Assembly (NCBI GenBank): GCA_028279215.1
Contig: JANQOF010000032.1
Span: forward strand, 1 to 55,115
Direction of reading: 5' to 3'
From: Pirellulales bacterium
Lineage (GTDB): Bacteria > Planctomycetota > Planctomycetia > Pirellulales > Lacipirellulaceae
Length of the DNA stretch: 55,115 nucleotides
Part shown: positions 1 to 46,551 of the stretch, one piece after another
Position numbering within the stretch: position 1 is the stretch's first letter
How the letters are laid out: each line of letters opens with the position of its first letter
Notes under the pieces: model-generated
What the model saw: only the letters and a program-made list of their open reading frames with translations
Told to the model about the DNA's origin: nothing
Databases searched by the model: none
Position numbers and translations under genes: made by a program

Positions 1-315
1 ACAAACACATGCGATACCTAACAATCCACCCACGCGGCCGCCACTCAACCAACCGACCGGTTTGCATGGGTAGCGTAGCATAGTGGGTGGCTCACTTTCC
101 ACAAAAATCGCTGAAGGAATTCGCCCATAATCAGTCGATTTCAGGAGCCTCCAACTGCCCCAGGTCGATGAAGCTGAGGTAGGTTTGACGTCAGGGTAAC
201 GGCCTGGTTTTTGCTCCGTTCTTCTGTAGTATGGAGATGGTACAAGTACGCTGGCGTTCAGTTGCTCCGCAAGCGGTCCGGGTGTGACGCAAACGCACGC
301 CGGGGGGGGGCGATT
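1..315. other. leading intergenic stretch, no gene seen
   Basis: No reading frame in this stretch resembles a gene, and no frame stays open from the window edge for more than about 25 codons. A GC-rich segment near 66-95 (GTAGCGTAGCATAGTGGGTGG) has the look of the REP-type repeats found elsewhere in the window, but I could not align it to them. A G-run at 302-310 lies just before the start of the next gene. Confidence 0.4.
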
Positions 316-930
316 ATGCACATTTGTAATTCACTGAACGCAACTCTCGTCACATACTTCCTTCTTTCCTCGCTCTCTGGATGTGGTGCACCAGTTAGCG
401 GGTCTCCGGAGGACACAATGAAGAAAGAACAATCTGAAGATGTCGCCGCCGTCGAGCAACTTTCCAAGGACTATGCTGACGCTTGGGCCAAAGGCGACCC
501 TGAGATACTTCTCTCTTGCTACGCCGACGACGCTGTCGTGATTATGTCGCACGAAGACCCAATCGTTGGCAAGGAAGCACTCCGGGAACTGTACGAACAC
601 GTCTTTGCCAGCCAGAGGTCAGAAGAAGAAGGCGAAGGTATGGCATCGATGGCAGACGCGATGGGCATTAACCCGGAAGACTACACGTGGAAGACGGAGG
701 GTGATGGAGTGAAGCCGGAAGTCTCTGGTGACTTAGGGTACCTCTGGAGTACCTACGCGAACATCGCTATGCCAAAGCCCGGTGTCGATGCCAACCCGAT
801 TGGCGACTCTGGGGTTAGCCTGCTCATTGTGAAACGGCAGCAGGACGGTGCATGGAAAGTTGCCCTGATGATGGCAACGCGGGGCGAGGACCCGGTTGCT
901 GCGAGCCAAGAAGGTGAGCCTGCCGAATAG
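316..930 (+). CDS. DUF4440/SnoaL-like (NTF2 fold) lipoprotein
   Basis: Putative exported lipoprotein of 204 residues. Starting at the ATG at 316 gives a short signal peptide with the lipobox LSGC (cleavage before Cys about 24); the frame is open further upstream (to 211) but those residues are arginine-rich and spoil the signal. After a linker, residues about 45-190 look like a DUF4440/SnoaL NTF2-like domain: LSKDYADAWAKGDPEILLSCYADDAVV is the usual opening helix and strand, followed by a GKEALRELYEHVF segment and a C-terminal strand region ending in DGAWKVALMMATR. Such domains bind small ligands or act as isomerases; the substrate cannot be told. It stands alone, with no evident operon partner. 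Confidence 0.75.
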   Translation: MHICNSLNATLVTYFLLSSLSGCGAPVSGSPEDTMKKEQSEDVAAVEQLSKDYADAWAKGDPEILLSCYADDAVVIMSHEDPIVGKEALRELYEHVFASQRSEEEGEGMASMADAMGINPEDYTWKTEGDGVKPEVSGDLGYLWSTYANIAMPKPGVDANPIGDSGVSLLIVKRQQDGAWKVALMMATRGEDPVAASQEGEPAE

Positions 931-1014
931 TGCCTCAGCGTGAAACACCTAGATGCTTCCCGCTACCGAATGAGAACGGTAGGTGAACCCGTAGTTCCGG
1001 CAGAACTTCCTGCC

Positions 1015-1182
1015 CTACCGGCTCCGCTGCCGAAGATGGTTGTCGAGCTGAATTCTAAATCGTTCTTCATCGGCGATCGCCTCGTCTAGGCCAGTTGAGC
1101 TCAGGTCCTCGCCATTGTGATCGAGCGTCCAATGATGGTCTCGTTTTCGAACCGTCAACACGTCACTTCTGTCCGCGAACAT
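1015..1182 (-). CDS. small hypothetical protein, 55 residues
   Basis: A short reading frame on the minus strand starting MFADRSDVLTVRKRDHHWTL and ending in HLRQRSR. The start at 1182 is preceded by a good ribosome-binding sequence (AAGGAAC, 6 bases before the ATG). The frame is open further upstream to 1383 but that part overlaps the transposase and is a shadow. The acidic, Trp/Leu-containing middle (DEAIADEERFRIQL) looks like real protein, possibly a helix. I do not recognise the family. It could still be a chance frame. Confidence 0.4.
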   Translation of the reverse strand: MFADRSDVLTVRKRDHHWTLDHNGEDLSSTGLDEAIADEERFRIQLDNHLRQRSR

Positions 1183-1218
1183 AGCTGTTCCTTCATCGTG
1201 GTCGCTGATGAAGTTTCC

Positions 1219-1251
1219 GTAGGGTGCGTGGAGCGTAGCGCAACGCACCAA
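1219..1251 (+). repeat. REP sequence, left flank of RAYT
   Basis: A 33-base unit beginning GTAGGGTGCGTGGAGCG and ending CAACGCACCAA. It contains the imperfect palindrome GGTGCGT...ACGCACC and so can fold into a hairpin, as REP elements do. The reverse complement of the unit at 1826-1858 matches it at 30 of 33 positions. The pair brackets the transposase remnant in opposite orientations. Confidence 0.8.
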
Positions 1252-1272
1252 CGTTCTGATTACAATCCCGGA

Positions 1273-1820
1273 ATGGGCCGTTATCGACGCAACCGGATTG
1301 GGAAGACGTTTTTCTTTACCACCGTCACCGATGGGCGGCAGCCGATTCTGACCACGGATCTCGGGCGATGCGTGCTTCGACATTCAATTTCCGCTGTACG
1401 GCATGATCTACCATTCCGCATTGTGGCGATTGTCTTGCTGCCCGACCACCTTCATGCAATTTGGGAAATGCCGTCCAGCGATACAGACTATTCGAAGCGG
1501 TGGCGGCTCATCAAAACGGAGTTCACCAAACAATGGCGAAAGCTTGGCGGCGCGACAATGCCCCGTTCTTCGAGTCGCCTGACGCGTGGCGAACGCGGCG
1601 TGTGGCAACGACGGTTCTTCGAACACACCTGTCGAGACGAGGCGGATTTGAAACGCTGTATCGATATATCCACGTTAATCCGCTCAAGCATGGCTTGGTG
1701 CATCGTGTTCGCGATTGGTCCTGGTCGTCGTTCCACCGATTCGTCGCCCAAGGAGAGTATTCGATCGATTGGGGAAATGCGAATGATTGGTACGGCGATG
1801 AGTTCGATCAGTTTGAGTGA
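1273..1820 (+). pseudogene. REP-associated tyrosine transposase (RAYT, Y1/HUH family), frameshifted
   Basis: A single-strand HUH transposase of the RAYT (IS200/IS605-like Y1) family, about 182 residues if read across one frameshift. The front part (1273 to about 1665) has the typical N-terminus MGRYRRNRIGKTFFFTTVT, the HUH metal motif in LLPDHLHAIWEMP, and RRFFEHTCRDEADLKRCIDI. The rest, YIHVNPLKHGLVHRVRDW..., continues in the -1 frame to a stop at 1820. A missing base around 1663-1666 explains the break. The presumed catalytic tyrosine of the YIHxNP motif lies just past the break, so the uninterrupted frame lacks it. REP sequences flank it at 1219-1251 and 1826-1858, the normal RAYT arrangement. 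No classical slippery site is present, so decay or a sequencing error is more likely than programmed shifting. Confidence 0.85.
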
Positions 1821-1825
1821 TTAAT

Positions 1826-1858
1826 TTGGTGCGTTGCGCTTCGCTTCACACACCCTAC
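1826..1858 (-). repeat. REP sequence, right flank of RAYT
   Basis: The inverted partner of the unit at 1219-1251; on the minus strand it begins GTAGGGTGTGTGAAGCG. Three substitutions separate the two copies. It starts 6 bases after the transposase stop and ends 12 bases before the stop codon of the next gene on the minus strand. Confidence 0.8.
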
Positions 1859-1869
1859 GCGACAACCAA

Positions 1870-2661
1870 CTACCCCAGCGCCAAGTTCCTCAAATAAGCC
1901 ACCGCGTTGCCCAACTCCGTCACCGCATCCGTCGAGTCGGATCCGGTTGCGGTGATCCAGCCGAGGTAGTCGCGGGCGTCGAGCGCGGCGAGCGCCGCGG
2001 GCATGTCGGCGGTGCCTCGGCCTAGTTCGACTTCTAAGGTGCGGCTGGCGCCGAAGTCGCGTACCGCGTCGTTGGCATAGGCGTAGAGTATGAGCGGCCC
2101 GAGCACTTCGAGCGCATCGATCGGTGTTTGGCCGCCGCCGAGCAGATTCGCGGGATGCAGGGCGACGCCTACGGTGCCTTCGGGGAGTTCGGCGAGCAGG
2201 TCGGCCAGTTCGCTGGCTGGTTGGGCGGTGGTGAGCGCGGCGAGTTGGGCGCCGACGCGGGTGCCTTCGCGGGCGAGCGATTCGAGCCCGCCGAGCAGCG
2301 TGTCCCGCTCGGACGACCCTGGCTCGGGCAATTGGCCGTACGCCCGATTGATGACGACTTTGGCGCCGAGTTGGGCGGCGGCGTTCATCGCCTGGCGAGT
2401 GCCTGCGAGCCGGCGGTCGAGCTCGCTCGAGTCTTCGTAGCCCCGCCGCGTGGGGTAGCTGACCGCCGCCAGACGGAGGTTGTAATCGTCGAGCAGTTTC
2501 CGGAACTGCCGAACCGCCGACTGCGACAGCTCGGCCAGCGGTAACTCGGTGCGGAGGTCGATTTCCACGCCGTCGGCCCCCAACTCGGCGGCCGTGGCAA
2601 GCGCCCGGCGGAGTGGCTGGCGCAGAGCGCGGGTTGGCAGACCGATATTGACGATTGTCAC
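1870..2661 (-). CDS. sugar phosphate isomerase/epimerase family TIM-barrel protein
   Basis: Predicted soluble 263-residue protein of the xylose-isomerase-like TIM-barrel (AP_endonuc_2) superfamily. The opening IVNIGLPTRALRQPLRRALATAAELGADGVEIDLR is the classic first strand-helix-strand, with the metal-ligand-type Glu in GVEID. Later barrel strands are recognisable in LAAVSYPTRRGY, GAKVVINRAYGQ, GVALHPANLLGGG and ILYAYANDAVRD, and the C-terminus (DYLGWITATGSDSTDAVTELG) fits the last strand and helix. Family members isomerise or epimerise sugars or inositols using a divalent metal; the exact substrate is not readable. Only some of the usual Glu/His metal ligands are evident, so activity is uncertain. 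It is transcribed away from the secreted protein that begins 120 bases upstream. Confidence 0.75.
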   Translation of the reverse strand: MTIVNIGLPTRALRQPLRRALATAAELGADGVEIDLRTELPLAELSQSAVRQFRKLLDDYNLRLAAVSYPTRRGYEDSSELDRRLAGTRQAMNAAAQLGAKVVINRAYGQLPEPGSSERDTLLGGLESLAREGTRVGAQLAALTTAQPASELADLLAELPEGTVGVALHPANLLGGGQTPIDALEVLGPLILYAYANDAVRDFGASRTLEVELGRGTADMPAALAALDARDYLGWITATGSDSTDAVTELGNAVAYLRNLALG

Positions 2662-2780
2662 GACTAGAAGCCCAGTTTTTGCGAGGAACGGTGCGGCCGG
2701 AAATGTACGTTGCCACCACGCTACAGTACATTTTCACAGCGCTAGCCGGCAACGGGGCAACGGGGCGATGGGAATCAACG

Positions 2781-5756
2781 ATGGATAGTAGCGTGGTCGA
2801 CGGTAACGTGTTGAAGTTTGGGACGAAATCAGTGTGCCACTGGCTCTGCCAGTGCCCGTGGTTGGAAACTGTTCGCACTGGCGTAGCCAGTGGCACACTT
2901 GCAGTTGCGATGCTCGTGGGCGCAAATGCCAATGCGCAATTCGATACGCACTCGGCCATCTTTGCTACTTCGTTCGAGGAAGAGGCCGACGCCAACTACG
3001 ACTTGTGGCCCGACCACTGGAATCGCAAGACGAGTCCCAGGTATCCGCACTACACGCAGATCGAGATCGTCGACGACGCGACCGCTCATAATGGCCGCAG
3101 TTTGCAGGTCGATTTTGACGGCGGCGGCGCGTTCGTCGCCACGCCCGCCATACCGATCTTGCCCAAGTTCGGCTACAAGGTTTCGGTGCGGGTGAAAGCC
3201 GAGAACCTGAAGTTCACCCGTCCAAGGATCATCGTCGAACTACAGAATCGCAATCAGGAGCGGTTGCAAGTGGAGGTGAGCGAGCCAATTGTCTCCGATG
3301 GCAAGTGGCACGTGGTGGAGTTCAAGAACAGATCGATTCGACCCAGTAGCGAGGAGATCGACCGCGCGATTATGTACCTCGATGCGCCGCGCGAGCGGCG
3401 TGGCGACCTGAAAGGCAAACTGTGGATCGACCAACTGGTCCTCGAACGGTTGCCTAGCATGGTGGTCAAGACCGGCAGTCCCTACAACGTGTACAACGAT
3501 TTTCGCGAAGTGAAAGTCGAGTGCACGCTCTCGGGCATTCGCGAGCAGAATCCCGACATCCGCTTTCAGTTGCTCGATGAAACCAGCCGCGTAATCCGCG
3601 GCAAGAGTCATACCGAACCACTGCAAGGCAAGCTGATTGTCGAAGATTCGTTCAGCGCTGATGAGATCGTCGGCACGATCGGAAATCGGCCAAGCGGCTA
3701 CGAGGGCTCGATCGACTGGACGCCGGACATCGAAGACTACGGATTCTATCAGATTCGCGTCGAGATGCTCCGAGAAGACGATGGCGAGAGTCCGGAAAGC
3801 GAGCTTAGCGACTATATCCGCGAGCTGGACAAACGAGTGATTACCTTGGCCGTGCTGCCAAAACTACCCCGCCCGGCGCACGGTGAGTTTGGTTGGACGC
3901 TACCAGTGGCCGATAAGCCGTTGTCGTTCGACGTGCTGGCCGACTTGCTGCCAAAGGTAGGCGTGCATTGGGTAAAGATGCCAGTGTGGTACCGGATAGA
4001 CGATCGCGCGCGGGGGGAAGAGATTGTGCGATTCGCCGAGCGGACTTCGGCCTCGGGCATCGAGGTAGTAGGCATTCTCGACAACCCGCTGGTCGAGGAC
4101 TGGCACCTCCGCGACCCGAACACGCCGTCGGATATTGCCGACTTGCTGCTGACCGATCCGTCGTTCTGGCAACCACAATTCGAACACGTAATGACCAGGC
4201 TCAGCCTGCGGCTGCGTTGGTGGCAACTCGGCAACGACTGGGACACCAGCTTCTATGGCTACTCGGAGCTATCCGAAAAACTGCTTAGCGTTCGGCAACA
4301 CCTGTTTCGGTTCGGCCAAGACGTGAAGTTGGGCCTGGGTTGGCGATGGCCCAAGGCAGGCGAAGATGAGTCGTGGTTGCCCTCGCACCCCGATCCGGTG
4401 TGGGACTACGAACAAATGTCGTCGAATCCTCCGCTCGATTCTGAAGGATTGAATCGCGCCATGGTGGCCCATCCGCCCACCAAGGCGATGCGGTGGGTGC
4501 TGGTCGATCCAACGATGCATTCTCACTTTTCACGCGAAGAACAAGATCTCTCGCCCGATGAGAGAAAACGGCTCCACGAAGATCATGTTCGCGAGTTTGT
4601 TCGCGAGTTGGTGACCGCCAAGATTCACGGCGCCGACGGCATCTTCGTCGCCAATCCGTTTACTGGCCCAGAAGGGATCATGAAGGCCGATGGCACGCCG
4701 GGCGAGTTGCTGTTGCCCTGGCGAACCACGGCCCACCTGCTGGGCGGTTGCCGCTACCTGGGCAAGCTCGATCTTCCAAATCGCAGCACGAACCATGTGT
4801 TTGAGAACGACGCCGGCGAAGTGCTGATGATTGTGTGGAACCACAAACCAACCGTCGAGCGCTTGTACCTCGGCGAGTCGATCGCGCGAATCGACGTATG
4901 GGGCAAACAGACGCCGCTTGAAGCCGATGAGGTGGGCCGAGTGACGCTTGCGGTGGATCGCAATCCATCGTTTGTCGTGGGACTGCATCCCTCAGTCACC
5001 GCGTGGCGCATGGCGGTGAAGTTTGACCAATTGCGCGTGCCGAGCGTGTTTAGCCGCACTCACGAGAATCTCGTGCGCGGCACGAACCACTTTCCTCAGG
5101 GCGTGACCGGAAGCTTCTCGATTTTCGTGCCACCAAGGGCCGAGGAAGTGGTGGCGGCGGACGAACCGTCCGAGTTCGTCAAGCCCGATGAGTTGCGAAA
5201 CAAGACTTGGGAAGTGCTGCCTCGGCGCGGCGAGCTATCGGTTGCTCCGCATGGAGAGTTTCAGCTCCCGATCCACATTCTGCTCGACGACGCAGCGTAC
5301 GGCCCACAACCAGTGCGAATCGATTTTCGAATCGAGGCCGATCGGAACTACCGCTTCAGCGTATGGCGTAACCTGAGCGTTGGCTTGGGCGACGTTGAGA
5401 TCGAAGTAGCCACGAAGATCGACAACGGCCAACTGGTCGTGGAGCAAAAAATGCTCAACGCCGGCTCGCCAACCGACTTCAAATGCCTGATGTTTGCTCC
5501 ACCTCGGCGGAGAAAGCGAACCCAGGTGGTAATGCTCGGCTCGGACGGAAACAGCAAGATTTATCAGTATCCCAACGGCGAGCAATTGCTGGGCAAGGTG
5601 CTAACGCTGCGGGCTGAGGAAATCACCGGAAACCGCGTGCTGATCTACCGGTTTCGAGCCGAAGCCGGCGAAGCGGCGGCTCCAACCGCTGGACAAACCA
5701 CTGAGACCACGTCCGTCGCGGCGCCCGCCGAGACTCAACCCTCAGGCCGCGGATAG
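2781..5756 (+). CDS. large secreted protein with TIM-barrel glycosidase-like core
   Basis: An exported 991-residue protein. The region before FDTHSAIFATSFEEEAD ends in a signal-peptide-like hydrophobic stretch (LAVAMLVGANANA, cleavage before Gln). The following 200 residues resemble a carbohydrate-binding beta-sandwich (FATPAIPILPKFGYKVSVRVKAENL and the matching later strands). A central part, from FGWTLPVADKPLSFDVLADLLPKVGVHWVKMPVWY through WWQLGNDWDTSFYGY, reads like a glycosidase TIM barrel, including a putative catalytic-strand region around LGNDWD. The C-terminal 300 residues are beta-rich. No enzyme family is certain. The start is ambiguous: ATG at 2781 is used here, TTG at 2862 would give a shorter, cleaner signal peptide, and the frame is open back to 2655. 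A REPIN sits inside the coding start. The neighbouring GH13 enzyme suggests a polysaccharide-related role. Confidence 0.7.
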   Translation: MDSSVVDGNVLKFGTKSVCHWLCQCPWLETVRTGVASGTLAVAMLVGANANAQFDTHSAIFATSFEEEADANYDLWPDHWNRKTSPRYPHYTQIEIVDDATAHNGRSLQVDFDGGGAFVATPAIPILPKFGYKVSVRVKAENLKFTRPRIIVELQNRNQERLQVEVSEPIVSDGKWHVVEFKNRSIRPSSEEIDRAIMYLDAPRERRGDLKGKLWIDQLVLERLPSMVVKTGSPYNVYNDFREVKVECTLSGIREQNPDIRFQLLDETSRVIRGKSHTEPLQGKLIVEDSFSADEIVGTIGNRPSGYEGSIDWTPDIEDYGFYQIRVEMLREDDGESPESELSDYIRELDKRVITLAVLPKLPRPAHGEFGWTLPVADKPLSFDVLADLLPKVGVHWVKMPVWYRIDDRARGEEIVRFAERTSASGIEVVGILDNPLVEDWHLRDPNTPSDIADLLLTDPSFWQPQFEHVMTRLSLRLRWWQLGNDWDTSFYGYSELSEKLLSVRQHLFRFGQDVKLGLGWRWPKAGEDESWLPSHPDPVWDYEQMSSNPPLDSEGLNRAMVAHPPTKAMRWVLVDPTMHSHFSREEQDLSPDERKRLHEDHVREFVRELVTAKIHGADGIFVANPFTGPEGIMKADGTPGELLLPWRTTAHLLGGCRYLGKLDLPNRSTNHVFENDAGEVLMIVWNHKPTVERLYLGESIARIDVWGKQTPLEADEVGRVTLAVDRNPSFVVGLHPSVTAWRMAVKFDQLRVPSVFSRTHENLVRGTNHFPQGVTGSFSIFVPPRAEEVVAADEPSEFVKPDELRNKTWEVLPRRGELSVAPHGEFQLPIHILLDDAAYGPQPVRIDFRIEADRNYRFSVWRNLSVGLGDVEIEVATKIDNGQLVVEQKMLNAGSPTDFKCLMFAPPRRRKRTQVVMLGSDGNSKIYQYPNGEQLLGKVLTLRAEEITGNRVLIYRFRAEAGEAAAPTAGQTTETTSVAAPAETQPSGRG
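2831..2899. repeat. REPIN-type inverted REP pair within a coding start
   Basis: Two 25-base units, 2831-2855 (AGTGTGCCACTGGCTCTGCC...) and 2875-2899, are inverted copies of each other with 23 of 25 positions matching, separated by 19 bases. Each unit is itself palindromic (CACTGGC, three bases, GCCAGTG). This differs in sequence from the REPs flanking the RAYT. The pair lies in the open frame of the secreted protein and codes for about 23 residues just before and inside its signal peptide. Confidence 0.85.
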
Positions 5757-39225: not shown

Positions 39226-41034
39226 GTGGAACAGCGCAGAAGAACGATTGGCTTGTGGATCCTGGGCGCGGTGCTTGCCGGACTGTTCAACGCCCAAGCA
39301 TTGGCCCAATTCGGTGATCCGGTGAGTCCGGTAGACCTCGGCCCCATAACCACGGGAGCGGTGTCCGGGATTCGCGCGAATCTGATCTCCGACGTTGATC
39401 GCACCCGCCTGACCCAAATGGCTTTGGCCCCGGGCTTTGAGAGCTCCATTTTCTTTTCCGAGCGCGAGGGCGGCATCATCCAGGTTGATCTGACCAATCC
39501 CAACCCATCTACTAACTTCACGTTGGTCGGCGATGTGGCAAACGAGTTAGGCAGCGCCTTCGGAGATGGTCGAAGCATCGATTGGTCAGCCGGAGACGGA
39601 ATGCGTGGCTTGGCGTTTCATCCCGATTTCGCTGACCCCGAAGCACCTGGGTTTGGCAAGCTATATACCACTCATGAAGAGGTGTACAACAGTGGGACGG
39701 CAACCTTCCCCGATCCCGCCCCGGCTTTGAGCGACCCGAGCGCTCGGCAGGATGGAGTGCTAACGGAGTGGACCTATAACCCTAGCGATGGCACTTTCCT
39801 TAACAATCCCCGCGAAGTCCTACGCGCCCAGATTGTCGACGGCCACCACCCTGTTCAGCAAATTGTGTTTAACCCCACCGCCCTACCAGGCGATGTCGAT
39901 TATGGGAATCTCTACATTGGCGTTGGCGAAGGTGCGTTGAATCCAACCGCCGAAGGCGGCGGCGGTGGCACGTTTGGCGACTTCGACCCCGACCCCGCCA
40001 ACATCACGCAGGTGGCGGATAACGTACATGGCAAAATCTTGCGCATTAACCCGCTGCAAGATGGACAAGACGCCTACTCTGTTCCCACCGGGGCCGGTGG
40101 CAACGTGTTTGCCAACGACAACGACAGCTCGACTTTGGCCGAGATCTTCGCCTACGGGCTCCGCCACCCACAGACTCTTGGGTTTAACCGCCAGACGGGC
40201 GATCTATTTGTTGGCGACATCGGCCAAGACTCCATCGAAGAGCTCAACATCGTCGTCAATGGAGGTAATTACGGCTGGGGGATCCGTGAAGGGACGTACA
40301 TCGATGGCCTCGACGACGGAAGCGGAAACCTGGTTTTCAACGGTATCTTTCGCGAAGCACTACCGGCGACACGCGACAGCGACGAGTTCATTTATCCAGT
40401 TGCTCAATTTTCGCACATACGCGGTGGAAGCGGTACGGGGCCCAACGCAATTGTCGGCGGATTTGCCTACCAAGGACAGTTGGCCACGGAGTTGGAAGGA
40501 CTGTTCATCTTTGGCAATCTATCCAACGACGACATCTTCTATGCACCTGTGTCCGACCTAACGAACGACAACGACCCCGCGCAGTTCTTTGAGTTGCAAC
40601 TCGAAGACGACAACCAGAATCCGATTAGCTTTAGCAGCCTGGTCGGCAACATACGCACGCTTATGCGATTTGGACAAGATCAGGCTGGAGAAATCTATGT
40701 CTTCTCACAAACAACGGGACAAGTATTTCGTTTGGAGGGAACGCCCGCTAACGCCGATTTCAATGGCGATTCGATAGTCAATCTGGCCGACTACACCGTA
40801 TGGCGCGACAACCTGGGAGGCACGGGTGCCGACGCCAACGGCGACGACCAGACCGATCTAGAAGACTACGCGATCTGGAAACAGCAGTTCGGTGGCCAAT
40901 TCGCCGCGAGCAATGCCAATGGGTTGCGGCAGGTGCCGGAGCCGGCGAGTCTATGCGTGGCACTCGAATTGCTCGTCGCCGGCGTGCTCGTGGCAGCAAG
41001 GCGGGGCGACCGTCGATGCGCCCAATCGGTTTGA
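39226..41034 (+). CDS. GSDH-type (PQQ-like) sugar dehydrogenase with dockerin-like repeat and PEP-CTERM-like tail
   Basis: A 602-residue exported protein that starts with a GTG preceded by GGAGG. Signal peptide MEQRRRTIGLWILGAVLAGL... is followed by a glucose/sorbosone dehydrogenase-type beta-propeller (FESSIFFSEREGGIIQVDL, ADNVHGKILRINPLQDG, FAYGLRHPQTLGFNRQTGDLFVGDIGQDSIEELNIVVNGGNYGWGIREG), which would oxidise sugars with PQQ; the cofactor is inferred. At about 510-560 are two dockerin-like Ca2+ repeats (DFNGDSIVNLADYTVWRDNL, DANGDDQTDLEDYAIW), then VPEPASLCVAL, a PEP-CTERM-like sorting tail. The downstream Fe-S protein is 153 bases away. Confidence 0.85.
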   Translation: MEQRRRTIGLWILGAVLAGLFNAQALAQFGDPVSPVDLGPITTGAVSGIRANLISDVDRTRLTQMALAPGFESSIFFSEREGGIIQVDLTNPNPSTNFTLVGDVANELGSAFGDGRSIDWSAGDGMRGLAFHPDFADPEAPGFGKLYTTHEEVYNSGTATFPDPAPALSDPSARQDGVLTEWTYNPSDGTFLNNPREVLRAQIVDGHHPVQQIVFNPTALPGDVDYGNLYIGVGEGALNPTAEGGGGGTFGDFDPDPANITQVADNVHGKILRINPLQDGQDAYSVPTGAGGNVFANDNDSSTLAEIFAYGLRHPQTLGFNRQTGDLFVGDIGQDSIEELNIVVNGGNYGWGIREGTYIDGLDDGSGNLVFNGIFREALPATRDSDEFIYPVAQFSHIRGGSGTGPNAIVGGFAYQGQLATELEGLFIFGNLSNDDIFYAPVSDLTNDNDPAQFFELQLEDDNQNPISFSSLVGNIRTLMRFGQDQAGEIYVFSQTTGQVFRLEGTPANADFNGDSIVNLADYTVWRDNLGGTGADANGDDQTDLEDYAIWKQQFGGQFAASNANGLRQVPEPASLCVALELLVAGVLVAARRGDRRCAQSV

Positions 41035-41187
41035 GTGCGTCGCGGATTGGTATACAGTAGGTCAACCGCCGCCACCGACCCGTTGCTGGTGGTGAGCCCA
41101 ATCGGATGGGTATTGTTGGTTAACGCGCGCTAGTCGTTGGCGTACTAACGTGGATTGCGCGTCGAATGCTGTTCTTCTTTCCGCGTC

Positions 41188-43206
41188 ATGCCTCCAACCC
41201 AACGCACTTCGAAGATGACTCGCTGGCGGGCGGCCAGTTTGATCGCGGTGTACGTGTTGGCCGTGATCCATTTCTTGCACTGGAAGCTCAACGGCTGGAC
41301 GCTCGCGCCGGTAGAGCCGAGCGAGATGTTCGACACGTTGCATCTGGGCGTGATCACAGTCGGCTTTCTGTTCATGGTCGGGGTCGTGATAGCGACGGCC
41401 ATCGCCGGAAGGTTCTTCTGCTCCTGGGGGTGTCACATCCTGGCGCTGCAGGACCTGAGCGCGTGGATCTTGCGCAAGCTGCACATCCCCACCAAACCAA
41501 TTCGCTCGCGCACGCTCGCGTGGGTCCCGCCGCTGGCAGTGGTCTATCTATTCGTCTGGCCGCAGGTCGAGCGGCTGCTCGAGGGAAAGCCGCTGCCCAA
41601 GTTGCATGTGGTGACCGATGCGGATGGTTGGTCGTCGTACTTCACCACCGACCTGTTGCGGAGCTTTCCGGGGCTCGGCATGACGCTCTTTACCTTCGCG
41701 GTCGTCGGGTTCGCTATCGTGTACTTCTTAGGTTCGCGGAGCTTTTGCAGCTACGCATGTCCCTACGGTGCGATCTTCGCCGTTGCCGATCGGGTGTCGC
41801 CGTTGCGCATCGTGGCGGGAGATGGCCCCTGCACCAAGTGCGGAGCATGCGTCGCCAGTTGTCCGTCGAACGTGCGAGTGATTGAGGAAGTCGACAAATT
41901 CGGCGCCGTGGTGAACGCCAACTGCATGAAAGATCTCGACTGCGTGAGCGTTTGCCCTACCAATGCTCTAGCGTATGGAGTCGCGAAGCCTCCGGTGCTG
42001 CGATCGTGGTGGAAGCCGCCCGGGCTCCGTAAGACGTACGACTTTACACTCCGCGAAGACCTATTGATGGCAGCGTTGTTTCTAGTGCTGCTGGTGATTT
42101 TTCGTGGGCTGTACGACGCCTTCTCGTTTTTGTTGTCGCTGGCGATGGCATCCATCGTTGCTTACTTCTGTGTGGTCGCCATTCGGTTGTGGCGAAGCGA
42201 GCCAGTCGCCCTAGGCCATCTGCAGCTCAAGAACCACGGGCAGTTGACCCCCGCGGGAAAGTGGACTGCGGCTGGATTGCTGCTATTGGGCGTGCTGGTG
42301 GTGCATAGCGGATGGGTGCAGTTCCACACGCTTGCCGGTAAGAGCTACATGGCGCGGCTGGCCACGCCGACGACCGAGATGGCCAAGCCGGGCGACGCTG
42401 TTGACGAACCTGGCGCCCGCTCAACGGATTTGTCGAGGGCCATCCATCATTTCGAGCAGGCCGCCCAGTGGGGGCTCGTTTGCCCACGAGGACTCCGGGT
42501 GACTTTGGCAACACTCTATCGTCAGGCTGGTGATACGACGGGCGCGCGCAATCAATTCAACACACTGTTATCGATAGACCCGAGCGATTACCAAAGCCGT
42601 CTGCAGTTGGCTTGGCTGTGGGTCGTCGACGGCCGGCCCGAGATCGCCCGTCGACTTGCCGAAGAAGTGCTTTCGGACGTTGGCGATGCTCGTGACCTGG
42701 CGACGCAGATGCGCAACGACAAGACTGCATCCGCGGCTCAATACTTGCTCGGCGATATCGCCGTTCGCTCTGGCGAACGCGGCGCGGCGATAGACTCATT
42801 CCAACAGTCGATCGAACTTTACCCGAAACATGCGCAGGCACACCTTTCGCTCGGTTCGCTGTTGGCCGCCGATCAACAACTCGACCAGGCCGCGCTGCGA
42901 TTCGCCACGGCTGCGAAGTTGAGCCCTCAATCGGCGGCAGCACACAACAACTTGGCCGCGGTGTTGGTTCAACTCAATCGCAAGGCCGAAGCCCTCGAAC
43001 ACTACCAGCGCGCGGTCGAGTTGATGCCGGAAGATCCTGTTGCAGCAGCCGATGCCGGTACGCTGTTGTTGGAGCTTGATCGAATAGACGAGGCGGAGCA
43101 AATGTTTAAGAAAGCGTTAAGTCGTCAAGCCGATGACGCTGTGGCGCAAGAAGGAATGGACGAAATCTCTCGGCGACGCCAACGAACTCCCGCAACTGGC
43201 CGATGA
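41188..43206 (+). CDS. NapH/NosR-like 4Fe-4S membrane protein with C-terminal TPR repeats
   Basis: A 672-residue membrane protein. Residues about 1-325 have several membrane helices and the motifs of NapH/NosR/CcoG-type Fe-S proteins: CSWGCH near residue 78, CSYACPYG near 187, then two ferredoxin clusters, CTKCGACVASCP (about 215) and CMKDLDCVSVCP (about 246). From about 410 to the end the protein consists of TPR repeats (AQYLLGDIAVRSGERGAAIDSFQQSIELYPKHAQAHLSLGSLLAADQQ). The fusion joins electron transfer at the membrane to a protein-binding scaffold. It follows the sugar dehydrogenase gene on the same strand, hinting at a link, but no proof. ATG 41188 was preferred to 41155. Confidence 0.85.
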   Translation: MPPTQRTSKMTRWRAASLIAVYVLAVIHFLHWKLNGWTLAPVEPSEMFDTLHLGVITVGFLFMVGVVIATAIAGRFFCSWGCHILALQDLSAWILRKLHIPTKPIRSRTLAWVPPLAVVYLFVWPQVERLLEGKPLPKLHVVTDADGWSSYFTTDLLRSFPGLGMTLFTFAVVGFAIVYFLGSRSFCSYACPYGAIFAVADRVSPLRIVAGDGPCTKCGACVASCPSNVRVIEEVDKFGAVVNANCMKDLDCVSVCPTNALAYGVAKPPVLRSWWKPPGLRKTYDFTLREDLLMAALFLVLLVIFRGLYDAFSFLLSLAMASIVAYFCVVAIRLWRSEPVALGHLQLKNHGQLTPAGKWTAAGLLLLGVLVVHSGWVQFHTLAGKSYMARLATPTTEMAKPGDAVDEPGARSTDLSRAIHHFEQAAQWGLVCPRGLRVTLATLYRQAGDTTGARNQFNTLLSIDPSDYQSRLQLAWLWVVDGRPEIARRLAEEVLSDVGDARDLATQMRNDKTASAAQYLLGDIAVRSGERGAAIDSFQQSIELYPKHAQAHLSLGSLLAADQQLDQAALRFATAAKLSPQSAAAHNNLAAVLVQLNRKAEALEHYQRAVELMPEDPVAAADAGTLLLELDRIDEAEQMFKKALSRQADDAVAQEGMDEISRRRQRTPATGR

Positions 43207-43303: not shown

Positions 43304-45838
43304 ATGGCAATGAATCGCTATCTCTGCACGGGTCCCTTACAGGCAGTTTGGATTTGGGCGTGCTCTGTCGTTTGTCTTGCCGGCGTCGAGCCTGAGTATC
43401 TCTTTCCCGACTTGTTTCCCTATGTGGAAGAGAACGCACAGGGTGATCTTGCAACCCTTCAGAACTGGCGGCTAGAGGGCAACGAGATTCGGTTCAACAC
43501 GCTGTTCGCCAACCAAGGAGACGGTGTGTTCGAGATCCGCAAAGGTGCGAATCTGAATCCCGACGAAAACGAACTGCTGCAGCGGGTGTACCTTGACAAC
43601 GATTATACTGGCGGGCCAAACGACAACTTCGTGGACTTGAACATTGGCATTTCCCCTACACCGGGAGCCGGTACACCGTTCCCCACAGATTTCAATGTCA
43701 TTTGGTTCGAAGACTTCACGCGGTTCTCGTTGCATGAAGCACTTGTGGTCGACGGATCGCTGACCGTGGGCAACGAGGTGGCGGGCGATACGAAGATGAG
43801 TTGGCGGCTGAGCCCCAACACGGGCCCGCTGCCAGGCTACGAGGGTTTACCGCGCAACAGCAGTTCCAACCTGTCCGAACAACAGCGGATCGGCGTCGGT
43901 TGGGCCGACCTGTATCGCTCTGGCAGCCTCGGGCAATTCATCGACATCACCGGCGTACCGGCGGGACCACTCTACTGGTTGCGACAGCACGTCGATCCGG
44001 CCAACCGCATTACAGAAACCGACGAGACGAACAATTCGTACGAAGTGCTCATCGACTTGAGCAACCCAGGTTTCGCCATTCGACGGGGCTACCAAACGGG
44101 CACATTCTTCCAGCCTGGTGATGCCCAGCCCGGTGACCTGAATGGCGATGGACAACTGAATGCAGCCGATTGGGCCGCGTTCAAGGCTAGTGCCGAAACC
44201 GACCTAACGGGATTGAGCGAGGAAGATGCCTACCTGCTGGGCGACTTGAACCTCGATGGCAGGCATTCGTTGGCAGACGCCTCGATTTTCCGCGAGTACT
44301 ACGAACTTGCGAACGGAGCGGGTTCGTTTGCGGCCATCAACAGCACGGTGCCCGAGCCAGCGTCCGCGATCTTTGCAGCCGCGGCGGCGATCGCCGTTTG
44401 CTACGTTGGCCGCCGCAAGTTGTACCGCGCGCGGCGGGCATTGCTAGTAGCGTTGACAATCACGACTTTCCTGGTTGCTTCGTCGCCGCAACCAGTGGTG
44501 GCCGATATTACGATTTGGTCGGAGGACTTTGAGAGTGTCACGCTTCTGACGAGTCCACAAGAAGATCCATCACGGAATGGCGTATGGACCGATACTCCAC
44601 CCGCCGGTTGGAGTGTTGACGATTCGGGAGTACCTGGTGTTGGAGACTCCAACCAAGGAGTGGAAGACTGGGAGGGGTGGGCATTTGTCGACGAAGATTT
44701 CTGGGTCGATGCAGAACAAGGGCAATTACGCGAGAATTTTCGCGGTGGCCTTGCCGATGGCGTGATCGCGGTTGCCGAAGTAGATGAATGGGACGACCTA
44801 GGCAGCCCAGCCGATGACATTGGTTTCTACAACGCCTTTATGACGTCGCCACAAATCGACATAAGTAGTTCAAACCCCAACACTTTGCGACTCAAGTTCG
44901 CCAGCAGTTGGCGTGATGAGTGTTGCGACGATGGCGATACCCACGATCCGAATGGTAACAATCAGACGGCCATTATAACTGCGTCCTACGATGGCGGCGC
45001 TGCACAAGAAATTCTTCGCTGGGAGTCGGATAGCTCAGACGGCAATCCCTTCTTCAAGAACGACGCACCGAACGAGTTGGTTGAATTGCCTCTCAGTAAC
45101 CCAGCAGCGTCGACCGTGCAGTTTGAGTTTGGCCTTGTCGACGCCGGCAACGACTGGTGGTGGGCGGTCGACAACCTCGAGTTGGTTGTAGCGACGCCTC
45201 CTCCGTCGCTTGAGGTAAACACCACGACTGGCGAGTTGACGGTTTTGAACGCGGCCGACCTGACTGGCTATGAAGTGATTGGCCCGACGGGATCGCTCGA
45301 TGAGGTAAGTTGGTCGGAAACCAATCTCGACGCTCGCAACGTGGGGTCGTCCGTCACCGCCGACTTCAATAACGACCATAAGGTAACATTGGCCGACTAC
45401 ACTACCTGGCGCGACAACCTTGGCAACTCTACCGCTGGCGACTCCGATGGCGACGGAATGACCACCGCCAGCGATTACCAAGATTGGAAATTGCAGTTTG
45501 GTGCTGAGATCTCCGAAGGCGACTCGTGGGAACTCTTGGCCGGATCGGACGGGCGCCTGAGTGAGTTCTACCTAAATGGACAAACTTCCGATTCCGCCCT
45601 TTCGATTGGTCAGGGATACAACACGGTCGCCAACCTGGGCAATCTGCAGTTCTTCTACAGCACTCCCGACGATCTTGAAATTGAAGGGTTGGTGAGTTAC
45701 GTCGGAGGGGGAGGTGAACGACGTTTGACCTTCGCAGCACAGCAGGTCCCTGAGCCGCAGAGTTGGTTGCTGATCGCGTCGCTGTTGGCCGTTGGAAGTT
45801 GTGTGCGGCATCGAGTGTACGTCGAGCCCTTAATTTAG
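43304..45838 (+). CDS. double PEP-CTERM protein: lysyl-oxidase-like half fused to a second exported protein
   Basis: An 844-residue frame holding two complete exported proteins in series. Part 1 has a signal peptide, a lysyl-oxidase-like domain (LFPYVEENAQGDLATLQNWRLE, IGVGWADLYRSGSLGQFIDITGVPAG, DETNNSYEV), dockerin-like repeats (LNGDGQLNAADWAAFK) and a PEP-CTERM tail at 349-378 (VPEPASAIFAAAAAIAVC, then basic RRKLYRARR). The His-rich copper motif of lysyl oxidase is absent, so oxidase activity is doubtful. Part 2 begins with what reads as a second signal peptide (ALLVALTITTFLVASSP, cleavage near Ala400), continues with a secreted beta-sandwich (DNLELVV, CCDDGDTHDPNG) and a dockerin-like repeat, and ends in VPEPQSWLLIASLLAVGSC. 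No stop separates them. A TTG near 44420 could also start part 2. It may be one polyprotein or a recent fusion. Confidence 0.85.
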   Translation: MAMNRYLCTGPLQAVWIWACSVVCLAGVEPEYLFPDLFPYVEENAQGDLATLQNWRLEGNEIRFNTLFANQGDGVFEIRKGANLNPDENELLQRVYLDNDYTGGPNDNFVDLNIGISPTPGAGTPFPTDFNVIWFEDFTRFSLHEALVVDGSLTVGNEVAGDTKMSWRLSPNTGPLPGYEGLPRNSSSNLSEQQRIGVGWADLYRSGSLGQFIDITGVPAGPLYWLRQHVDPANRITETDETNNSYEVLIDLSNPGFAIRRGYQTGTFFQPGDAQPGDLNGDGQLNAADWAAFKASAETDLTGLSEEDAYLLGDLNLDGRHSLADASIFREYYELANGAGSFAAINSTVPEPASAIFAAAAAIAVCYVGRRKLYRARRALLVALTITTFLVASSPQPVVADITIWSEDFESVTLLTSPQEDPSRNGVWTDTPPAGWSVDDSGVPGVGDSNQGVEDWEGWAFVDEDFWVDAEQGQLRENFRGGLADGVIAVAEVDEWDDLGSPADDIGFYNAFMTSPQIDISSSNPNTLRLKFASSWRDECCDDGDTHDPNGNNQTAIITASYDGGAAQEILRWESDSSDGNPFFKNDAPNELVELPLSNPAASTVQFEFGLVDAGNDWWWAVDNLELVVATPPPSLEVNTTTGELTVLNAADLTGYEVIGPTGSLDEVSWSETNLDARNVGSSVTADFNNDHKVTLADYTTWRDNLGNSTAGDSDGDGMTTASDYQDWKLQFGAEISEGDSWELLAGSDGRLSEFYLNGQTSDSALSIGQGYNTVANLGNLQFFYSTPDDLEIEGLVSYVGGGGERRLTFAAQQVPEPQSWLLIASLLAVGSCVRHRVYVEPLI

Positions 45839-46551
45839 TCGTCGACCTGCAGGATACCGATCGGAAAGGGCGTCCAGCAACCGGTGCGAATGCCCGCCAC
45901 TTCCAGGGCGTCGCCCGTCCAGGCATTGCAAGTGTAGAGCGCGGAGTAGATGCCTATCGCCTCGTAGAAGGCGTCACGCGGCCCGTAGTTCCAACCGGCA
46001 ATCAGGCGCGGCGCGGCGTTGCCCAGTTCTACGGAGCCATCCAGAACAAACGATTGCTCGATGAACTCGCACATCCGCTGGTAAGCCGCCGGTTCAATCG
46101 TCACCTGACGATATAAATCGTTGGTCGGCGGCGGATCCATCAGCGATACGTGCATCACGGTGCGTGTAGGCCAAAGCATCGACCAAGCCGTAAGATCGGC
46201 CCGCACGTCTTCCCACCGCGGCGTTTTGAGGAAGAATTCTCGGTCGCCCCAGCCGAACGCAACGTGCGTTTCGTTACCCGAGATTCCGCGAAAGTCGCTG
46301 GGCGAGAACCAAGGTTGCCAGTCGCGCGCGGCCGTCGTTATGGGGACGATGATCTCGGAATGGGCCGAGTCGACATACACCGTGACCTCGATGCCCTCGT
46401 CGGCGCTCCGGAAGCTGCGATTTACCGGCAACAGACCGATGAGTACCGCGCCGGCGAACGCCAGTAGGACGATTAGCGCGGCTTGGGCGGTGCGCCAAGC
46501 AACACGCTTGGCGCGGGCGAAGAAGGTCGGTTTCGCTCCCTGAGTAGACAC
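45835..46551 (-). CDS. DUF2459/TIGR02117 family protein
   Basis: A 238-residue membrane-anchored protein of the DUF2459 family, of unknown role. One membrane helix follows the N-terminus (ALIVLLAFAGAVLIGLLPV). The family pattern is clear: VTVYVDSAHSEIIVPI, HVAFGWGDREFFLKTPRWEDVR, and the ending GPRDAFYEAIGIYSALYTCNAWTGDAL...GCWTPFPIGIL. Its last four bases overlap the end of the double PEP-CTERM gene. It lies upstream of the ribosomal operon on the opposite strand. Confidence 0.85.
   Translation of the reverse strand: MSTQGAKPTFFARAKRVAWRTAQAALIVLLAFAGAVLIGLLPVNRSFRSADEGIEVTVYVDSAHSEIIVPITTAARDWQPWFSPSDFRGISGNETHVAFGWGDREFFLKTPRWEDVRADLTAWSMLWPTRTVMHVSLMDPPPTNDLYRQVTIEPAAYQRMCEFIEQSFVLDGSVELGNAAPRLIAGWNYGPRDAFYEAIGIYSALYTCNAWTGDALEVAGIRTGCWTPFPIGILQVDD

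Follow-up and report, generated by a model that had tools for sequence, protein, structure and literature searches.

In exosortase/PEP-CTERM protein sorting, the motif lies near the C-terminus "virtually without exception", and the very few PEP-CTERM proteins with much longer tails have been suggested to be possibly non-functional (Haft et al. 2006, PMC1569441). LPXTG/sortase and GlyGly-CTERM/rhombosortase likewise use tripartite C-terminal sorting signals; these too are described as C-terminal, and no serial form is found in the relevant sections of PMC3237569. The cytochrome b/c1 polyprotein FbcH of Bradyrhizobium is reportedly a bacterial gene product that signal peptidase divides at an internal signal sequence. 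Viral polyproteins, such as those of flaviviruses, alternate stop-transfer and signal sequences with signal-peptidase cuts. We analyzed a 55,115-nucleotide stretch of DNA from a Pirellulales bacterium (GCA_028279215.1, contig JANQOF010000032.1; hereafter the window), in which one frame carries two PEP-CTERM units in series. The architecture shares with exosortase/PEP-CTERM sorting the motif, the transmembrane helix, the basic cluster, the signal peptides and an exosortase in the genome, but here the motif is internal, a new signal peptide and another entire protein come after it, and complete units meet at as many as three internal junctions. FbcH is one conserved respiratory gene without an exosortase site, whereas here many secreted proteins are involved, with two predicted cuts per junction. 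The alternation of stop-transfer and signal sequences with signal-peptidase cuts is shared with the viral polyproteins; the present frames, however, are bacterial and modular and encode no protease of their own, for which the sorting enzyme of the cell would substitute. No description of serial PEP-CTERM units was found in the titles and abstract openings of the open-licence literature searched.

The frame, at 43304-45838 on the forward strand (as are all of its features below), is open for 844 codons and stop-free across the junction. Its first unit consists of a signal peptide (about residues 1-27, 43304-43384; hydrophobic stretch at 12-26, KD 1.93), a lysyl-oxidase-like domain (43385-44098, limits by eye), a type I dockerin (residues 276-329, 44129-44290; PF00404 at 32.2 bits, above cut-off) and a PEP-CTERM segment (residues 349-378, 44348-44437) made up of VPEP, a transmembrane helix and an Arg/Lys-rich loop. 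The second unit has a signal peptide (residues 379-400, 44438-44503; hydrophobic stretch at 379-393, KD 2.23), a jelly-roll domain that we call module 2 (residues 403-648, 44510-45247), a dockerin-like repeat (about residues 684-735, 45353-45508) and its own PEP-CTERM segment (residues 815-844, 45746-45835). Beyond the first PEP-CTERM helix the chain continues without a stop through RRKLYRARR, ALLVALTITTFLVASSPQPVVA and the new domain, and finally reaches the second VPEP tail. Several complete proteins thus share one stop-free frame, as expected of a polyprotein.

The internal PEP-CTERM scores 26.1 bits against PF07589 (cut-off 20.7), with residues 348-372 as the best stretch, and it has the PEP motif, hydrophobic helix and basic cluster that define such a segment. 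It does not meet the expectation of an extreme C-terminal position, as it begins at residue 349 of 844 and the frame continues; only the second copy does. The anatomy of that terminal copy is right, but its TIGR02595 score of 12.9 falls below the NCBIfam threshold of 16. Both signal peptides were called by a hydropathy rule, not by SignalP or another dedicated predictor, and the requirement for an N-terminal signal peptide is met on that basis alone; cleavage of the internal one is predicted by eye after VVA400. A structure model of the full-length product is unreliable (pLDDT 37), and this low-confidence model places helices at residues 353-371 and 377-392. A sequence-only reading had proposed one frame with two PEP-CTERM proteins in series without a stop, tails from residues 349 and 815, a second signal-peptide-like stretch at about 378-400 and a lysyl-oxidase-like first protein. 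The description and coordinates hold, with the reservations that the second tail is below the TIGR02595 cut-off, that the signal peptide (379-400) rests on hydropathy and that the enzyme label stands as "-like" only. Its premise that a PEP-CTERM normally sits at the very end of a protein agrees with PMC1569441.

That label rests on a PF01186 match of 29.1 bits (cut-off 20.4) that spans only about 60 residues (190-250), and we therefore regard the name lysyl-oxidase-like, inferred from sequence alone, as the most that is tenable. In alignment with the corresponding loci (L009, L010, L011), HGHIHFDDF of the related genomes G028 and G024 reads FNVIWFEDF in the window (43691-43717) and INAIWFEDF in a third relative, G021. 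A histidine-rich stretch is the copper or metal site of lysyl oxidase. The histidine-rich site is absent from the window's domain at the aligned place, and because of these replacements the window and G021 copies have probably lost the metal site, an inference from the alignment and the role of the stretch in lysyl oxidase.

Module 2 is predicted with high confidence by AlphaFold2 (pLDDT 93.1). It shows a weak fold likeness to MAM, gingipain cleaved-adhesin and CBM4 structures, with TM-scores no higher than 0.58, and by sequence its single match among solved structures is a weak one, to Reelin (E 0.0037). On the strength of this weak similarity an adhesive or sugar-binding role is possible, though no more than a guess. 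Single-unit homologues of module 2 in other genomes (L022, L024) carry a single hydrophobic stretch, at the N-terminus, and a single PEP-CTERM, at the end, and a 2061-aa frame in G054 also matches the module. As a separate observation, five loci from Phycisphaerae, Verrucomicrobia and their kin (L096, L100, L101, L102, L108) each match module 2 five times, many of these matches lying end to end as tandem domain repeats. The dockerin-like repeat of the second unit has many matches elsewhere in its own genome, and the Pfam scan of the frame reported no second Dockerin_1 stretch. The neighbors of the frame encode a glucose/sorbosone-dehydrogenase-like protein that ends in a PEP-CTERM (39226-41034) and a 4Fe-4S/TPR membrane protein (41155-43206); a DUF2459 protein is encoded on the opposite strand (45835-46551). 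Judged by eye, G021 and G013 (L009, L012) also have a relative of the 4Fe-4S/TPR gene immediately upstream of their lysyl-oxidase-like gene.

The same fused frame is present in three relatives, G021, G028 and G024, as open frames of 808, 914 and 839 aa with 52, 45 and 44% identity. In a fourth genome, G013, a stop of its own closes the first half (58% identity over residues 22-373; 424 aa) behind a normal PEP-CTERM tail, and the contig encodes a module-2 protein (505 aa) as a separate gene; this contig runs only 153 bases beyond the first-half frame, and the sequence further on is missing. The comparison with relatives that the sequence-only reading had called for therefore gives both outcomes, three fused and one separate. 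Across the four orthologues, which were gathered by homology, the invariant residues of the junction are P350, E351, P352, A361, R370, R371, A383 and A400. Among these are the RR anchor (R370 R371) and the -1 residue of the predicted signal-peptidase site (A400), and P816, E817 and P818 of the terminal copy are invariant as well.

The architecture is widespread in the order Pirellulales, which a single sequence could not have revealed. A scanner that requires PEP, a helix, a basic loop, a signal-peptide core and AxA, with our own hydropathy rule, identified 91 distinct stop-free junctions in 62 frames; 20 shuffles of those frames gave none and the reversed frames gave one, showing that the recurrence exceeds chance. 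One false positive (L157, antisense, with PQP) was discarded by requiring PEP. A junction profile (A1) built from 30 rows yields full-span, stop-free matches in at least 28 of the 36 genomes of the window's family, Lacipirellulaceae, and in at least 8 of 23 genomes from the order's other families. These are lower bounds, drawn from a partial match listing in which counted rows start at profile position 1-2, reach at least position 46 and contain no stop. The scanner also confirms a junction in 25 and 5 of these genomes, respectively; six (G008, G010, G035, G047, G055, G056) are supported by the profile alone. In a phylum-wide draw of 199 genomes (at most 32 candidates scored per genome, E 1e-6), only G135 and G217 gave full-span, stop-free matches besides the window's own genome. 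Similarly, among 75 named loci with relatives of module 2 or of the first half, many from Phycisphaerae and Verrucomicrobia, serial PEP-CTERM frames were seen only in L093 and L154, both Pirellulales; the frame of L154 is a triple one of 1432 aa.

The window's own genome contains five further frames with internal junctions (1053, 919, 928, 1395 and 904 aa, the 1395-aa frame having two junctions) and a sixth of 560 aa. Two internal junctions are found in frames of 1370-1570 aa in nine relatives (L035, L039, L041-L047) and also in G018 and G001, and two further frames, in G004 (1341 aa) and G017 (1408 aa), have PEP at two internal places in another unit order. Three internal junctions occur in frames of G001 (1658 aa) and G034 (1152 aa) (L258, L259). 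A 1512-aa frame in G003 has four, corresponding to four complete units plus the tail of another, and two adjoining 262-aa stretches in it, junction included, are 97% identical. A whole export unit is thus duplicated in-frame in tandem within this serial frame (L265/L298), and the first unit of the series is seemingly interrupted by an inserted frame. Among other serial frames, LamG lectin-like domains are carried by L258, a type I phosphodiesterase together with LamG by L039 (1408 aa), and a sulfatase by L266.

Serial units are nonetheless the minority habit in the genomes sampled. In evenly spaced samples, terminal and internal motifs numbered 19 and 1 in G021 (400 kb), 10 and 4 in G003 (400 kb) and 14 and 0 in G028 (360 kb), so that 5 of 48 motifs were internal when pooled; motifs classed as "other" (3 in G021, 2 in G003) were left out of the counts. 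A negative-control genome without an exosortase match, G049, gave neither kind in the 82,742 bases sampled. As a side observation, the junction profile gives 136 matches in the 4.56 Mb genome of the window at E up to 10, including weak ones, and 131 of them start within the PEP-CTERM half; with one exosortase gene found, this points to many candidate substrates for it.

The sites at which cuts are predicted are conserved, as expected of the signals between the units of a polyprotein. All 11 related triple frames have PEP at both internal sites, and no other stretch of the aligned junction is invariant before the next domain begins; the helix, loop and signal peptide vary freely and differ in length. 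Nine of these rows were chosen from frames already positive in the motif scan; the remaining two (G018, G001), included on the basis of homology, agree. In the four orthologues of the window frame, PEP and the -1 Ala are both kept. The junction is coding and constrained, yet looser than the bodies of the units. In three G028 pairs, the junction codons give pN 0.363 and pS 0.665 (218 codons), with whole-frame pN values of 0.135, 0.155 and 0.213; the window/G021 junction gives pN 0.463 and pS 0.715, and the junction within the in-frame duplicate of G003 gives pN 0.05 and pS 0.362 (55 codons). The window/G028 junction (pN 0.575, pS 0.584) shows no visible constraint at that distance. The loop has a median length of 7 aa and a net positive charge in all 91 junctions, which matches the positive-inside rule, a result favored by the scanner's own demand for two R or K. 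Loop codons have a GC3 of 0.629, versus 0.733 in the bodies, and 0.467 in the six long loops, as if these might lately have been intergenic.

Start codons at the junctions are slightly above chance. From the first helix to the signal core, 21 of 91 junctions contain an ATG in frame, versus 15.5 ± 3.5 at random places, and 55 contain any of ATG, GTG or TTG, versus 48.9 ± 4.5 at random places in the same frames; 36 junctions have none of the three, rarer start codons being outside the count. A start together with an SD-like site is absent from 79 of the 91 and present in 12, versus 6.2 ± 2.2 in codon-shuffled junctions (8 of 500 shuffles reach 12) and 4.0 ± 1.9 at random places; for ATG with an SD-like site the figures are 7 observed and 2.2 ± 1.4 expected. 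All 12 have loops of at least 11 aa, and ATG occurs in three of the six long loops. We read these 12 as likely young fusions that retain the old start of the downstream gene, and some downstream units may be translated both ways, also starting alone. In-frame TTG codons are present in the window's loop (L373, L380, L384), and its junction falls outside the set with an SD-like site; the G021 orthologue has no ATG, GTG or TTG from the end of the first helix to beyond the signal cut.

Other exits from the first unit were considered and rejected. Separation by 2A/StopGo is marked by an NPGP motif, and none occurs in any of the 91 junctions or within 60 residues on either side. A frameshift exit is not indicated: the density of +1 stops in internal signal cores (0.059 per codon) is not raised over that in N-terminal cores (0.073 per codon, cores having been found for 43 of 60 frame starts), with +1 stops in 64 and +2 stops in 15 of the 91 junctions. 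Stop read-through as a general habit is also rejected, as unfused neighbors show no same-frame excess (32 of 101).

Taken together, the reading that we consider likely is a secreted polyprotein that arose by loss of a stop and is processed at its internal PEP by exosortase and at its internal signal peptide by signal peptidase. In this view, the first signal peptide would export unit 1, the internal PEP-CTERM helix would halt transfer and lead the chain back into the cytoplasm, with the Arg/Lys-rich loop remaining on that side, and the next hydrophobic stretch would act as a fresh signal peptide to export unit 2. Both PEP sites, internal and terminal, would be targets of exosortase, and signal peptidase I would act after the AxA-like site within the chain, giving two mature surface proteins from one translation product and leaving a short two-helix hairpin. 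The open frame, its conservation and recurrence, the invariant PEP, the loop charge and the genes for both enzymes are directly supported; the topology, the cutting, the evolutionary sequence of events and any advantage from equal dosage are inferred. The window's genome encodes an exosortase (G000:C38, a 391-aa frame above the PF09721 cut-off, with a TIGR02602 score of 111.9 versus 105.55) and a signal peptidase I (PF10502), and an exosortase is found in 57 of the 59 genomes searched. Against this reading stand the lack of any protein-level evidence of cutting and the fact that exosortase action on a non-terminal PEP-CTERM is undemonstrated, as well as the suggestion of Haft et al. on long-tailed proteins. 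The start codons at the junctions, with or without an SD-like site, the faster evolution and lower GC3 of the junctions relative to the bodies, the minority status of fusions and the failed full-length model also weigh against it. As an aside on the enzyme itself, one exosortase domain lies at the N-terminus of a 1742-aa frame (L306, G003:C1:1480500-1489000; 2-4954, reverse strand), the remainder of which, as far as fetched (1651 aa), consists of TPR repeats resembling PrsT; exosortase-matching frames of 1739-1769 aa are also present in G001, G009, G014 and G038.

As to origin, neighboring PEP-CTERM genes in the same frame would have lost the intervening stop, after which the downstream start and ribosome-binding site would decay and the linker would shrink. 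Among the loci examined, 101 of 221 terminal PEP-CTERM ends are followed, at -20 to +250 nt, by a same-strand frame with a signal peptide, and these neighbors show no preference among the three frames (32/33/36). Tandem neighbors are therefore common and about one-third are already in frame, so that a single stop loss would suffice. Fusion would be tolerated because each unit has complete entry and exit signals of its own, and PEP-CTERM proteins would be fusable because their helix is inferred to return the chain to the cytoplasm, where a following signal peptide can work. Of the three options that the sequence-only reading had left standing, a polyprotein cut in mid-chain is thus supported as the present state, with the cuts unproven, and a pair fused after stop loss is supported as the origin, the two being compatible; the third, a sequence error, fails.

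The error explanation holds that sequencing or assembly removed a stop or shifted the frame at the junction, and the 83-contig assembly of the window's genome speaks for it. We consider it all but excluded, because three relatives keep the same fused frame and like junctions occur in many other frames, some of them in the single-contig genomes G003, G014, G017, G021 and G026 and one in a named RefSeq chromosome (L154). The observation is therefore real and conserved, and broader than first described. Alternatively, downstream units could use internal starts of their own, the missing stop being incidental and little full-length polyprotein of consequence. The 12 junctions with a start and an SD-like site, in excess of the codon-shuffled expectation, the ATG codons in half of the long loops and the TTG codons in the window's loop support this notion. 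We judge it very unlikely, since more than a third of the junctions and the G021 orthologue lack all three start codons, since translation of unit 1 must continue into unit 2 where no stop separates them, and since neither NPGP nor +1 stop density points to a programmed exit.

The frame could also be fused but left uncut at one or both internal sites, which would yield a single membrane-anchored protein whose two exported domains are connected through a two-helix hairpin. There is no evidence of cutting, the hairpin topology is sound without cuts, and the low-confidence model does place two helices there. This explanation is nevertheless unlikely, because PEP is kept at both sites of all 11 triple frames while helix and loop vary, and because the few residues that are invariant at the junction of the window's orthologues include PEP and the -1 Ala; an uncut hairpin would need neither. 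A further possibility retains the mechanism of the polyprotein reading and differs only in the reason for its being: stop loss may be merely neutral, with the units processed as proposed and a functionless fusion persisting by chance. The abundance of unfused neighbors and their even distribution over the frames, the young look of some junctions (longer loops, relic SD and start) and the minority status of fusions all speak for it. Against it, triple frames with two internal junctions are kept in 11 genomes, at 39-76% identity in the three pairs compared, and on balance we lean slightly against neutrality. A bolder form of the polyprotein reading, toward which the balance tips by a small margin, is that exosortase/PEP-CTERM serves in Pirellulales as a general polyprotein-processing system, with two to four or more units per frame, each bearing complete export and exosortase signals, that would be duplicated and swapped as cassettes and set free in equal amounts from one translation product.

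PEP-CTERM is by definition a C-terminal tag, and cutting by exosortase has often been inferred. Serial units make this cutting directly testable, as the halves would appear as separate proteins only if both exosortase and signal peptidase cut. The apparent evolutionary stages can be set out from separate genes, through a longer linker with a relic start, to a short linker without one. For annotation, the frames carry a warning that one long planctomycete protein may represent several mature proteins. If the polyprotein reading is true, it would describe a broad secreted-polyprotein strategy for bacteria.
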